Positions 55,953 through 64,000 of a DNA stretch of 64,000 nucleotides are shown here, piece by piece. How positions within the stretch are numbered: the first letter of the stretch is position 1; the number at the start of each line of letters is the position of its first letter. The translations under genes and the position numbers were made by a program. The stretch is from Bryoerythrophyllum caledonicum (Eukaryota > Streptophyta > Bryopsida > Pottiales > Pottiaceae), in assembly GCA_963971425.1 (NCBI GenBank), contig OZ020517.1, forward strand, positions 870,501 to 934,500. Direction: 5' to 3'. The notes under the pieces are model-generated. The model made no database searches. It was not told the origin of the DNA and was given only the letters and a program-made list of their open reading frames with translations.

Positions 55953-57185
55953 TTAGACGCCCTTGTTGAAGAAGACCTGAGTCACAGGCTGACCGAATCG
56001 ATTAACCCGATTATGAAACGAGCCCTCGAGCTTAGCCACGCTGACGGACGCTTGCTGCTTAAATATGCCAAAGCTAAGCGGCACGCTAATCTGAATTGAC
56101 GCCCCCACCATGGCCATCAGCGTTGGTATTCGCAAGGCAGGGTGTCGTGTGTAGAAGGCCGTCCGCTCCAATCTGCCATATACACATCCTTGCGTCAGAA
56201 AGGCAAATATCAGCGTATGAGAAGAGGAATGTTGGAGTGGGTTGGGTTGTACCTGTGCATGACGAGTGGTGGAATGACCAGTATTGGAGCAGCTGCGAAA
56301 ATGCGTCCCGCAGTGCAAGCACTAACAGCACGGGCACCGGCGAGTCTGCTCTGCCCAACCTCATCTCCATTCTCATCAAACACCTTGATACCGTCCAGAA
56401 ACTCATCTCTGCGCGTGATGCCAAGATTCAACACGTCCGCTGCTGCAACCGCACAAAAGGGAACAAGCCTGCGAGCTATACCTGCCCTGCATCAAGAGTG
56501 TCGACTTAGACAGCATCAAGACAGCCTCGCTTACACTTGATTGCTTAAGTCTAGCTTATACAATGTAAGCAACAGCAGCATGACCTAGAAGAGATCGTTG
56601 AGCTCTAATAACACACTCAAACGAGGAGCCAGAATGTAAGTAACAAAGACAATAGCATGAATTGTTGAACTGTAATAACACACTAGAAACGAGAAGGCAG
56701 GGCACGTACCACCGTTTGCCAGGAGGAACTTTGTCGAGGAGCGCATGCAGCCCAACGGCAGCTCCCACCGAGCTCGCGGTCGCTCCAACATACGCTTCAA
56801 ATATCTTGCGCCCGCCTTCCTGGTTGGAGGCATTCCGGTTGGCGTAATAGTGCAAGCAGTTGTAGGTCTGGTTCAGCCACTGGGCAGCAACGTTCTGCCG
56901 GAGCCCCCTGGCCGAGATCATGAGGGTGTCAAGGACGAGGTTACACGGAATGATAAACGAGAGACGAAGTGGAAGAAAAATCTTCTCACCCGTGTCCGGA
57001 TGGACCACCGCATCCTTAATTTTGCGTGCCAATTCCAGCCGCTCGGGGCTTACCACATCCTTACCCTCGTGGTCTCTCAGAAGCTGCAAGGCTTCTTCTA
57101 CCTGCGCGTCGGTCACAAACGCTGTCCTGATATCCATCATGTTGAAAATCCGCTGCACCCTCGCCCAGTACGTTCCTTCGTCCAT
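55953..57185 (-). CDS. Sideroflexin (mitochondrial amino-acid carrier family, Mtc/PF03820)
   Basis: Inner-mitochondrial-membrane carrier family; animal SFXN1 moves serine into mitochondria for one-carbon metabolism. Three exons with exact phases (57185-56710, 56468-56253, 56172-55953) encode 303 residues, close to the usual 310-330. Donors GTACGT and GTACAA; acceptors CTCGCAG and TGGCAG. It opens MDEGTYWARVQRIFNMMDIR, then the signature HPDTGEK, LRLSFIIPCNLV, the NQTYN segment, VPFCAVAAADVLNL (second exon start), DEFLDGIKVFDENGDEVGQS and GRIFAAAPILVIPPLVMHR. The tail is longer and more polar than in animal SFXNs. The ATG follows shortly after an acceptor-like CGGCCAG, so a short extra upstream exon is possible. 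Confidence 0.92.
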
Positions 57186-57869
57186 TTCGAACTGGCCGTG
57201 ACAGAGCAAGCAGAAGATAAACTCGCTACCTCATATTCCTCGCAAATCTTCACAAATAAGTTGCTATGCCGCCTTCACCTCCGATGCACAAACCCTAAAT
57301 CGACCCACAGAGTTAGGGCTCCTCCTCAGATGCGCTCACACGCTCGCCAGACGATGTCCTTACACAATGTAGGCTACTTAGGCTTGACTACTTCAGCAGG
57401 AGCGCCTCAATTCTTCCAAATAAGCCTCGCAGCCAAAAAATTCTAAACACACTCTCCTGACTCGGTCTTCATTTCCATATCGGCATTTGCCAATTCTACT
57501 CCAACAAGTAGATCACAAGAACTCCTCAGATAAGGTTACATTTCAAAAGCACGTACACAGTTCCAACATGAGAATATCACCTGTTTTTCCGTTTGAAGAA
57601 AAATGCTGCTGAAACAGAGTTCCTAGTCTTCCTGCAGTGAACATATCTTCACACACTCCATCCTCGGCAAGAAAAAACTCGCAACTTACCAGATGCGTAA
57701 AAACTCTAACAGTGTTGTGAGTACCAACAACGAAGTCTTCTACCGTTGCTACACACGAAAATAACCAAACACACGCACGTCTTGCAGAATGACGTGAACA
57801 AAATATGTGTCCTTGATGAGCCTGCGAGGGGAGCTGAGGTATGGCGGGGGTGACAGACATCTAAGGCTT
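57186..57869 (-). promoter_or_regulatory. Sideroflexin upstream region
   Basis: A telo-box-like AAACCCTAAATCG lies at 57291-57303. Overlapping ORFs on both strands show no domain. Likely leader and promoter. Confidence 0.35.
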
Positions 57870-58180: not shown

Positions 58181-60616
58181 GCCGACCCATCACAAGAACC
58201 TTTGTAGCAAGCTCTACAGGCCACCTCAAAGGACAAATTAGATTATAACTTAGAGGTGGAGGAAGATGAGCATCCATTGAGACCATTGCCACAACAGTTG
58301 GTGCAAGCATCGGCAAGCTACAGTTATTTCCATGAAATGAGTTTGTAGTTTTTTGTGCTCAAAAGTACCCAGTGCGTAGAAGTCATTATGCATGATCTAG
58401 AACCCTGGTAGATTCTCATAGGCTAGAAAAGCTCATTGGCCTTAAAAGGTTAATTCTATGCTTGACAGCCTAAAAACTGTAGCAATGAAAATCTGGATTT
58501 CAACTGGTTTTTTGTTTTGTCTTTACTTTGAATGTTTTTTAAAATTGAGACTTTTCGAAAGAGTCTTTCTTGAAGAGGAAGGAGAAGTGAAAGCGAGGGC
58601 GAGATTTGAATTTAGGAATAGAATAGAGCATAAAATATGTTATCAAAGTGTGCACCAATGAAATGGAAGAGCAATATTGGCAATCAATATTCTTAAGTCA
58701 TAACCACTACAAACTAAAGCACTTCCATAATACCCCAAGTATTCTAAGAATCGACAAATAGTTTCACCATATTATTCTTAGGTCAAGCCACCCTCTCCAT
58801 GTACTAATGGTTATTAACATGAGATTGTACAGTAGGAGGTGGTAAAGGAGGTTGATCCCTCTCACCAGTAAGATAACTTGTGTGATTTGTTTATAAAAAT
58901 AAGGGGTCTACACTTAGAAAACACTAGAAGCAAGGTTGTTGCCCCTCATTTACAAATATAGGATAAAGATAATCCCTGGGGACAAGATTATGACTCACTC
59001 ATTTATTCCAACAAAACCATGGTCGATGAGTGCGTCGGGCCACTAGAAACAAAATGTGGGTTGTAGCGTAATGAATCTAGCCAAAGCCCAATCATTTTGC
59101 AATATGTGGAGATCTTGTAGTAGCCCAATCTTAAGCACTGTAAATGTCGTGATTTTAGGATCACCACATTGCTCCACCCCCATTCCCACAATCCGTTCTG
59201 GAGACAATCTCCACAAGTCCCTCCTCCACCCCAATACTTTTGCTCACCATAGGCACAAGTTGTATTGAGCAAGCATAGCAAGAACGCCTTCTTTTCCAAG
59301 AAGCGTGCTTAAAGAGAGAACTGCCATTAGTCTCCTACTACAACAAATCCGATTATTGGGGGGCTGAGGGCTATGATGCTTGTAGGCTACAACCCCTTCC
59401 ACCCAGCTCATGAAGTTTAGTTATTCTCGGAACCAATGAACGGGCCCCTTCTCTCTCCACAGCCTATTATCCGAAAGTCGTTTCCGCTGGAACGAATGAT
59501 CTCTCTTCAACTTTTCGGATAGAAGGGGGGTGGTAGAAACTTGTTGCCGATTAACTGTAAAAAATGAAACATCATGGCCACGTGTCTTGGATGAGGCTCT
59601 TCCCATCGTTGACATACTGTGATAGTCGAAATTGAGTTTTATCCTTTATCCTTTTACATTCACCAATTTTGCCAATTTGTGAGTAGTGACCTAGGTGCGA
59701 TACATGCAACTCTCTACTTCCTCAGAATTCATGGTCATCACAAAGCATGACGTAAACAATTGGTCCCCACACATGCACCGGGATTGCAGTTTTCAGAGAC
59801 CGGACCCCTGCTTTTCGGGGTACTTTATTGAAATTTGTCCCCTGACATGTTGGCCATACCGTTGTGTATGTTCGGGATGTTTTTGGTACGTTTGACAATA
59901 AATCTTCACAAAATTTTCCCATAGCCGTCCTTCGTGTGGGAAATTCTGAACCATGTGCGGGTTCGCCCAATTCTGAACCAAATTCTGAACCAAATTTGGT
60001 GGCATATTCTGAACCAAATTCTCAATCATGTGCGGGGACCAAATGACTTCAACCATTACCGCTTCATTGATGGGAAATCATCAACTTTCATGAACATCCG
60101 TTATGAACAACCACTAAGCAGACGCACATGACGATCATAAAGGGCTTCATCTTCTAGATATGGTCCCTAAAAGTCCGCGTTGGGCTCCTCATGCCCACAC
60201 CAGTTTCACGGTAAAATCCGATATGGTTCCTAACCAAACCATTTGGTTACCCTCTTCTGATTTACCTTTTAACCATATTATTACCACAACTTTCCCATTG
60301 CGTTCCCGATGAGTTCCCATGATGTTCCCCAAAGGTCCCCACCGTGTTTCCAAAGTGTTCCCCAACGTTCCTCCATTCCCAACGCGTTCCCCATGTTCCC
60401 AAAGAGTTCCCAATGCGTTTACATTGGAAACCAATTTATACTTTTAAACTTTTATCCAAATTTACCATAAGTTTAGTGGGGCCCACCACCAATCGTTGGC
60501 CCAACACAGGCTCATCCGCACACATGTGCGTGAGCTTACTACAGTACAGGGTTGAACATCCGTTACAATAATTGTGACGGTTGCGTTGGAATTGCTGACA
60601 TGGTGGCGGTGCGGGC
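58181..60616. other. Intergenic with degenerate short repeats
   Basis: No gene. 59936-60030 holds several ATTCTGAACCAAA-like units; 60290-60430 holds about a dozen degenerate 11-14 bp units built on GTTCCC. An ATTATCCGAAAG block at 59464 is roughly mirrored by CTTTTCGGATAG at 59511, a small foldback. Confidence 0.5.
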
Positions 60617-61879: not shown

Positions 61880-64000
61880 CTAAACCTTCCCGTTGTCGCT
61901 GCTGTCATCGTCAACTGCTGGTTGCGGCGTTTCCTTCCGTTGCAATTCCTTTGGAATGCGAAGAGAAGGCACTCCCCACACGTTGAAGGGAGCCCAATAC
62001 TGCACCGCGTCGTGACCGCGCCTGTTCATGCATTGCAGCGTGGCGGATTGCAAGGCGGAGGCCACATCGTTCCCTTTCCAAAGCTCGTCGTAGAAATCCA
62101 CCATCAGAGCCAGCGTTTCTTCGTCGTCCACCTTCCACAGCGAAGCCACCACACACGGCACTCCCGCAGCCATGAATGCTCGTGCCAGGCTCAGTACGCC
62201 TTCGGCTGTCAACCGCCCAGCCGAGGTTTGACACGCGCTGAGAACCACCAGCTCCGCAGTCCAGCGAGTCTCTAGGTTGTTGATGACTTCCACCGTCAGG
62301 TCGTGTGAGGACTCGGAGGTGCCCGGGGCGAATCGTCTGATTGTCGCGCTTGAATTGCTGCTGCTTGCAATTGCTGAAGCTTCACTTGTTGCTAGGGAGT
62401 TCGTGTGCATGAACCCCGACTTCGCACCGGACCTGATCGTCATGACGCGATGCAAAATCGCCCTCGCGAAGTTCAGGGTTCCATCGTCGTTGACAAGGTC
62501 CCGAACCTCGGAGTCAGATTCATCACCGTCACCGCAATCGTCTTCAAGATGTTCATCATCTGCTTTGCCCCTCGCCAACGACATATCAAGCTTTTCCTTC
62601 GCTTGGTCTCCCGATGACGTTGAGGCAAGCGCATTGCTCGCTGACACTGGAGGATCGCACGCCAGTAGCAACTGGTTGTTCCTGTGGTCATCCTTGTCAA
62701 TGTGCCCATGTGCTCCAATGTGAACAATCGCTTGTCGAAATGATTCTTGAGATGGTTTCGCAGCCCACTCCAGGAGTTTCTTCGCAGTAGCGTCCCTCTC
62801 CGTGAGGGTCATCACCGCTGTATCGCCAAACAACTCCACGAGTTTCTGCACCTCCTTCCCAGTCGCTTCGAGGGGTTGACGCCAGTCGCATTTCTCACAC
62901 TCATTATATGTCGGATTCCCTAGGGCGACGATGGATCCGCAGCGGCCTGTGTAAGGGCGAGAGTCGTTTTGCAAGTCTTGAAGACGATCACTACACATCT
63001 GCAGGACTCTCAGCGAGGGAACAATAGTGAAGGCGAACCTTTCAATGAGACGTCTTTGGTCTTTGCCCGGCTTTCTAAGAGCGGCAAAAGGCACTCGGGT
63101 GAGCAACTGCATGCACACCACCAGTCACAATTTCAGATGTCAGAACGATCAAGCCATCGGTCTCTAACCATTTCATCTTAATATATTCAAGTAGTAATCT
63201 AAAGTCCATCCAAACCAGGAATGCTCCAAGGTTGCGGAATGTGCCACTATACCTCACTTGGAGCGACCACCAACTTGTCTCCAGGCTTCACCTTGTCCAG
63301 ATGATATTCAATGGGCGCTATTAATGCGCCATACAGGAACTCCAAATACTTGTTCATAGACTCATCATCAGTGATGATCGATTTTTTACGAAGGTGCCTA
63401 TTCTCTTTATCTAGGCAAATTTCTGTGTGTTCCGGGTGTCGTTGTTTGTATTCCAGATAAGCGTAAAGATCATCCAACCTTTTCTGTGGGGTGGGCGGCC
63501 GTTTCGATGGGGTACAGTTTAATATACCATCATCCTCGTTTAAGGGTATACTGGATTCCACGAATAGTTTGCAGCCATCCTGAACATTTCAAATTCAGCT
63601 CTTTCAAAAATAAAGGAATCAATCAACAAGCACGGTATTCACAGCTAACGATCATATTTTGGCGAAGTGACTGATCGTAAACTTGCGAGTAGTGCTATAC
63701 CTGATCAATCATAATAACATATATGAAAGAGAAATTGATAGCAGAACTGTACTGCACAAATACAGTAGATTCTTTCTCAAGCAAAGCCCGACAATTCTCT
63801 TTGATATATCTCAAGGCACCACGGTCATGGGCATCAAAACCCCATTTCCTGACTTCATGGGGCTTCAAGGACTTGGGCCTGTGCATTTCATACTGGTACA
63901 TCATAACCCGTGTCCGCTCTCCTTCAGCAAATAGAAATGCGTTCCACAAGGAGGCATCTATCTCTCTCTGTGTATAGAAAGGCTCAGAGGTTACATCAGC
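61880..64000 (-). CDS. CHAT-domain cysteine protease, 5' end outside the window
   Basis: CHAT domains are separase/caspase-clan peptidases; relatives include bacterial TPR-CHAT effectors. Three phase-0 exons are visible: beyond 64000 to 63701, 63579-63253, and 63106-61880 (stop included), 617 residues in all. Exon joins are GTATAG donors with TGTTCAG and GCATGCAG acceptors. Motifs in order: AEGERTRVMMYQYEM; EKESTVFVQYSS with FIYVIM (typical CHAT strands); FLYGALIAPIEYHL, GDKLVVAPSE, then LLTRVPFAAL, where bacterial proteins have PHGxLxxLPFxAL; the catalytic-His loop VHIGAHGH (His codon 62710-62708); the catalytic-Cys loop VVLSACQT, followed by GEGV-like AEGVLSLARAFMAAGVPCVV ASLW and the YWAPFNVWG end. 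Both active residues are present. Between them lie 158 residues, far more than usual, rich in Ser and acidic residues. An N-terminal TPR region would be expected beyond the edge. Confidence 0.92.

Follow-up and report, generated by a model that had tools for sequence, protein, structure and literature searches.

A candidate TPR-CHAT protease gene of the moss Bryoerythrophyllum caledonicum with a long insertion between its catalytic histidine and cysteine

Introduction

By cutting gasdermins and other effectors, CHAT proteases take part in the immunity of bacteria and fungi, and in corals their genes have been expanded (PMC10197012, PMC12314368). In Craspase (Csx29), a part consisting of tetratricopeptide repeats (TPRs) and a linker holds the protease inactive until activation (PMC9729208). 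In fungi, CHATs of the receptor type control gasdermins (PMC10197012), and coral expansions and human TTC28 have a long TPR region followed by one CHAT domain (PMC12314368). Caspases and metacaspases (C14) share the caspase fold and regulated cleavage with these enzymes; in caspases and in type II metacaspases, cleavage falls in the p20-p10 linker, both catalytic residues being part of p20 (PMC5756287). Here, we describe the end of a 64,000-nt stretch of DNA, called the window below, from the moss Bryoerythrophyllum caledonicum (contig OZ020517.1, positions 870,501 to 934,500 of the forward strand; C4:870501-934500 in our numbering, within a 437-Mb assembly of 894 contigs). Judging from its sequence, we consider it fairly probable that a multi-exon gene has its 3′ end in the window and encodes a long TPR-CHAT cysteine endopeptidase whose disordered loop lies beside the catalytic histidine.

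How does such a gene stand to what has been published? Plant members are not mentioned in the portions used of the accounts of eukaryotic TPR-CHAT proteins (PMC12314368, PMC10197012). Among open-licence papers, judged partly by their titles, no account of land-plant CHAT proteases and no prior description of a moss TPR-CHAT family was found, which is no proof of absence. A land-plant CHAT family that has an intact dyad and changes in the manner of immune receptors would open a route of proteolytic signalling apart from metacaspases.

Catalytic dyad, predicted fold, and exon structure

A minus-strand open frame of 414 codons (61880-63124) contains a CHAT domain, recognized in a profile search as Pfam PF12770 (2e-49, 169 bits against a cut-off of 24). 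Both parts of the catalytic dyad, HxxxHG and SAC, are present in the CHAT exon: the histidine codon lies at 62708..62710 (minus strand) in IVHIGAHGHI (core HIGAHG), and the cysteine codon at 62231..62233 (minus strand) in LVVLSACQTS (core LSACQT), 159 residues apart. A preliminary description, made from the letters of the window, had pointed to an intact dyad with this very spacing, and the codon positions together with the profile match bear it out. Both residues are invariant in alignment A2, although among its prokaryote rows this invariance is built in because the rows were chosen for both motifs. The same description took the gene for a plant one, as it proves to be: the genome gives seven matches to the LEAFY domain (SAM_LFY; best 1.3e-27) and none of 14 control genomes gives any. 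The LEAFY-domain family is not known from outside plants.

The AlphaFold2 model has a CHAT/separase-like core, with 184 of 409 residues at a predicted local distance difference test score (pLDDT) of 90 or more, and CHAT and separase structures stand at or near the top of its VIA-align list, so that a caspase/separase-like fold is found in the predicted model. The insertion between the two catalytic residues is modelled at low confidence, in blocks across residues 161-270 with pLDDT 35-59, as is expected of a loop; a structure prediction had been proposed in the preliminary description as a check on just this point. A further, weak match to the CHAT model (E 0.014-0.018) is given by chains R0/R1 of Protein Data Bank entry 7sqc, a ciliary central-pair protein of Chlamydomonas, which perhaps has a degenerate CHAT-like domain.

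Identity with separase was considered and rejected, since the match to PF03568 is not significant (0.052, 13.1 bits against a cut-off of 27.8); the genome has its own separase at C3:37874659-37876164 (1.8e-51). A separase-like specificity for arginine at P1 is not supported either. At the position called W+8, whose register is taken from K670 of Csx29, the equivalent of the aspartate D2151 is leucine, where Csx29 has Lys670 (PMC9729208). In the 12 of 13 family rows readable at W+8, the residues are L, L, I, R, C, H, K, R, P, P, P, and S, a variability between paralogs hinting at differing cleavage preferences.

The last coding exon, E6 (61880..63106, minus strand), encodes the CHAT protease domain and a short acidic tail, ends with the stop codon TAG at 61880-61882, and starts at 63106 behind the acceptor GCATGCAG, with TTGCTC as its first letters. 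Exon E5 (63253..63579, minus strand) is a linker into CHAT (ending in KLVVAPSE) with phase-0 junctions on both sides, and E4 occupies 63701..64000 (minus strand) within the window, as drawn from splice contexts and open frames, and extends past it to about 64679 (L010:679, L010 being the stretch beyond 64000). By their splice contexts E4, E5, and E6 join in matching phases, as do E3 and E4 by our reading. Past 64000 follow three long open frames on the same strand (E1-E3) and the remainder of E4; added together, the frames of the four upstream exons, the linker exon, and the one CHAT exon come to about 1,740 residues. E1 has sub-threshold Pfam TPR matches (1.1e-4 and 2.8e-4), is conserved in three paralogs at 30-73% identity, and is predicted to form an array made up wholly of helices (mean pLDDT 75). 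The top Foldseek rows for this array are TPR proteins, among them LGN and kinesin light chain, with TM-scores below 0.45. To look for TPRs beyond 64000 had been suggested in the preliminary description, and a TPR-like exon is indeed there on the same strand. With these further exons upstream, the first of them TPR-like, the CHAT exon probably encodes the C-terminal end of a TPR-CHAT protein some 1,740 residues long.

The insertion and the spacing in other CHAT proteins

The insertion (62306..62653, minus strand; 116 codons, 348 nt) lies between the histidine strand and the cysteine strand, is of low complexity and predicted to be disordered, and includes an acidic/serine patch, DDEHLEDDCGDGDESDSE, at 62507..62560 (minus strand) and the serine-rich stretch ASSSNSS at 62348..62368 (minus strand). 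Prokaryote CHAT proteins typically have far shorter spacings. In a first sample, the best 80 of 568 confirmed loci, the spacing could be measured in 74 (median 48, range 40-160), and the six others include some whose motifs the pattern may have missed. A second sample, partly overlapping the first and made of 30 loci among matches from eight genomes, gave a median of 47 and a range of 40-88 in 25 loci. Because these medians stand against 159 in the moss protein, about 110 residues are extra; the preliminary description had spoken of about 100, with the acidic run and ASSSNSS, both of which are there, and had given a bacterial spacing of roughly 50-70, which is slightly high. Csx29 has a spacing of 42 (H585-C627) and lacks the long loop (PMC9729208); it also has a CRISPR (clustered regularly interspaced short palindromic repeats) partner, and none is known for the moss protein. 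In the first sample, seven loci have spacings of 97-99 and one of 160, all eight being cyanobacterial by record title; the insert of the last is an Asn-rich repeat, and the other seven have a different one in common. Since these insertions fall at the same site, the site tolerates insertions, though 159 is extreme. A scan of viral contigs gave 49 pattern matches, none of which was confirmed as a relative.

The CHAT family of the moss genome

By our own grouping of 24 profile matches, the counts of which are lower bounds, the genome has at least 15 CHAT loci; in 14 of these, the histidine and the cysteine of the dyad were both found. The other, C3b (L023 with L104), has a histidine-like motif, RLGVHG, and no cysteine motif in the 16 kb searched, and it is perhaps truncated. 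The preliminary description had named loss of the dyad in close relatives as a result that would speak against it; in the paralogs of the same genome the dyad is kept, C3b apart.

The spacings sort the family into types. In group A, they are 159 in C4 (the gene of the window), 159 in C14, 176 in C7, 180 in C8, and 158 in C2. In group B, models with the best-scoring single intron give 83 or 107 (tied) for C6, 129 for C6b, and 132 for C10, the 83-residue model of C6 forfeiting the glycine that follows the histidine. C7b has no convincing splice site in its loop, and its five best relaxed models range from 50 to 118. Under the best gene models, the loop is therefore long in eight members of its clade, the ninth being C7b. 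The canonical loci have spacings of 76 (C2b), 46 (C3), 51 (C8b), and 45 in each of two C2c copies.

A quick tree was made from 61 rows, 13 of this genome and 48 of prokaryotes, over 317 columns with SH-aLRT (Shimodaira-Hasegawa-like approximate likelihood ratio test) support only; the 48 were left of 73 prokaryote stretches, all preselected for both motifs, after 25 had been dropped by eye as near-copies. Groups A and B fall together in a single clade (99), and the plant rows are all grouped (96); group A does not form a clade of its own, the canonical group has a support of 26, and several branches are long. On the simplest reading of these relationships, the long loop may have arisen once. 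The acidity of the loop recurs in all five members of group A, whose most acidic 20 loop residues include 9-11 aspartates or glutamates, against 3-5 in canonical paralogs and a median of 5 and a maximum of 7 in 74 prokaryote loops. In these five members the loop changes in sequence but keeps its acidic composition, a pattern seen in many disordered regions that does not prove a function. The loci C4, C14, C2b, and C2c, each less than 1 Mb from a contig end, are perhaps subtelomeric.

Divergence between C4 and C14

The C4 gene was compared with its paralog C14, the introns and flanks of the same alignment serving as the non-coding class. Of 13 indels in the coding exons, 12 have lengths divisible by three and the remaining one falls at the stop codon; in non-coding DNA the figure is 7 of 15 (Fisher p 0.016). 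The cysteine half of the CHAT domain has changed at 0.028 per nonsynonymous site, well below the non-coding 0.102 (p 6e-5). The five upstream exons combined reach 0.146, above the non-coding value (z 4.6), and 0.121 if E3 is left out (p 0.048). For the whole CHAT exon, the ratio of nonsynonymous to synonymous change (dN/dS) is 0.69 (interval 0.46-1.05), and it is near 0.9 in the upstream exons. Diversifying selection on the upstream exons is possible from these rates, not proven. E3 (L010 about 1106-2024) stands apart, with 77% identity and a synonymous divergence (dS) of 0.33 against 0.10-0.15 in other exons, which suggests exchange with another paralog and a mosaic history.

Interpretation and alternatives

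What could such a protein do? A fast-changing front and a constrained protease would make a plausible plant sensor-protease. By analogy with the TPR and linker part of Craspase, the upstream array would be a sensor or docking surface that keeps the protease inactive and releases it upon ligand binding, after which the protease would cut one or a few proteins. The insertion would be a disordered loop that exits the segment after the catalytic histidine, near an element that rearranges during Craspase activation, and its acidic and serine-rich make-up would suit a gate that covers the active site and works electrostatically or is tuned by phosphorylation; this gating function is the least certain step, and we regard it as rather doubtful. 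Taken as a whole, the idea of a moss family of TPR-CHAT receptor-proteases, each combining a rapidly diversifying sensor part with a caspase-like protease whose acidic gate loop, set between the catalytic residues, is specific to the lineage, is put forward tentatively, being in its full form unlikely as yet. If true, it would mean a plant class of immune or self/non-self proteases akin to those of bacteria, fungi, and corals, with cleavage preferences specific to each paralog. The preliminary description had placed CHAT proteins downstream of gasdermin; this order must be reversed, because gasdermin is itself cleaved by CHAT proteases, which thus act upstream of it (PMC10197012, PMC12881547). 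The gasdermin family PF04598 has no match in this genome, but control genomes are equally silent.

Several observations weigh against the receptor-protease proposal. The N-terminal gene model is approximate because the donor phases at E1-E2 and E2-E3 do not fit the acceptors found, possibly for a small exon overlooked at one of these places, and repeat matches in E2-E4 are weak or none. The fast change of the upstream exons is uneven: E3 (0.223, p 9e-17) carries most of the signal, which gene conversion may have inflated since the dS of E3 is raised, and E4 (0.133, p 0.02), E5 (0.151, p 0.02), and E1 (0.125, p 0.1) follow at a distance, with E2 (0.091, p 0.4) under the non-coding value. The dN/dS intervals include 1 in every segment, in the C-terminal part of CHAT only just (0.10-1.02). 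In the model, residues 295-299, just past the cysteine, have pLDDT below 50. As for the loop, its nonsynonymous change of 0.076 per site is not different from the non-coding 0.102 (p 0.18), the C-terminal stretch of C7 equals the loop in acidity (10 against 9 acidic residues), lower-scoring splice models would shorten the spacing in group B to as little as 26, 52, and 53, and the insertion of C2 has two in-frame stops in its acidic part (L012 8477-8560), both read through in the value of 158 and due either to a small intron or to a broken copy.

The gene may then be an ordinary TPR-CHAT enzyme, its loop a functionless low-complexity expansion at a tolerant site, and this is a serious contender to which we give a little under an even chance. 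The unrelated cyanobacterial insertions at the same site, one of them an Asn-rich repeat, are what such an expansion would look like, as are the nonsynonymous rate of the insertion, not different from that of non-coding DNA, its variable length and sequence between paralogs, and the position of both C2 stops inside it; what it leaves unaccounted for is the retention of a long loop in eight of nine paralogs of one clade and an acidic patch in every group A loop above the maximum of 74 prokaryote loops. That the whole gene is a decaying duplicate would fit the dN/dS ratios given above and a 60-nt gap at the N-terminus relative to C14, but is improbable in view of the in-frame indels and of a cysteine half that changes far more slowly than non-coding DNA.

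Two other explanations concern the insertion itself. If it were an unspliced intron, the mature protein would be short-spaced, and there are indeed 109 in-frame GT-AG pairs within it and three group B paralogs that appear to have introns in this region. However, only 16 of 2000 mononucleotide shuffles of the 348 nt remain open in frame, the C14 copy aligns across the 116 codons at 84% identity with no indel, 74-114 residues are left even after any of the five in-frame excisions that score best, and the group B models with the best scores retain 83 or 107, 129, and 132. Because the frame is open and C14 keeps the length, the intron explanation, by which the preliminary description had proposed to refute itself, is highly improbable, and the insertion is very probably real coding sequence. 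The preliminary description had further suggested a regulatory or self-cut loop like that between the subunits of caspases. Caspases and type II metacaspases are known to process themselves (PMC5756287), and the model has a low-confidence, probably exposed loop here. This likeness fails on position, because the known linkers follow the cysteine (PMC5756287) and the insertion precedes it; nor can a cleavage site be named, the separase aspartate for P1-Arg being leucine (PMC9729208). A caspase-type linker is accordingly rejected, and self-cutting in general we hold to be quite improbable.

Neighboring sequences

Upstream of the C4 gene, at a distance of 1-4 kb, is a frame for a DDE_1 transposase (L010:5973-8612), and a protein stretch that looks similar by eye is found at the C7b locus (start of L015, minus strand). 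Within the window, a sideroflexin exon occupies 56556-57230 on the minus strand (3.6e-40), and a degenerate, GGGAAC-rich stretch at about 60280-60420 resembles a minisatellite by eye.
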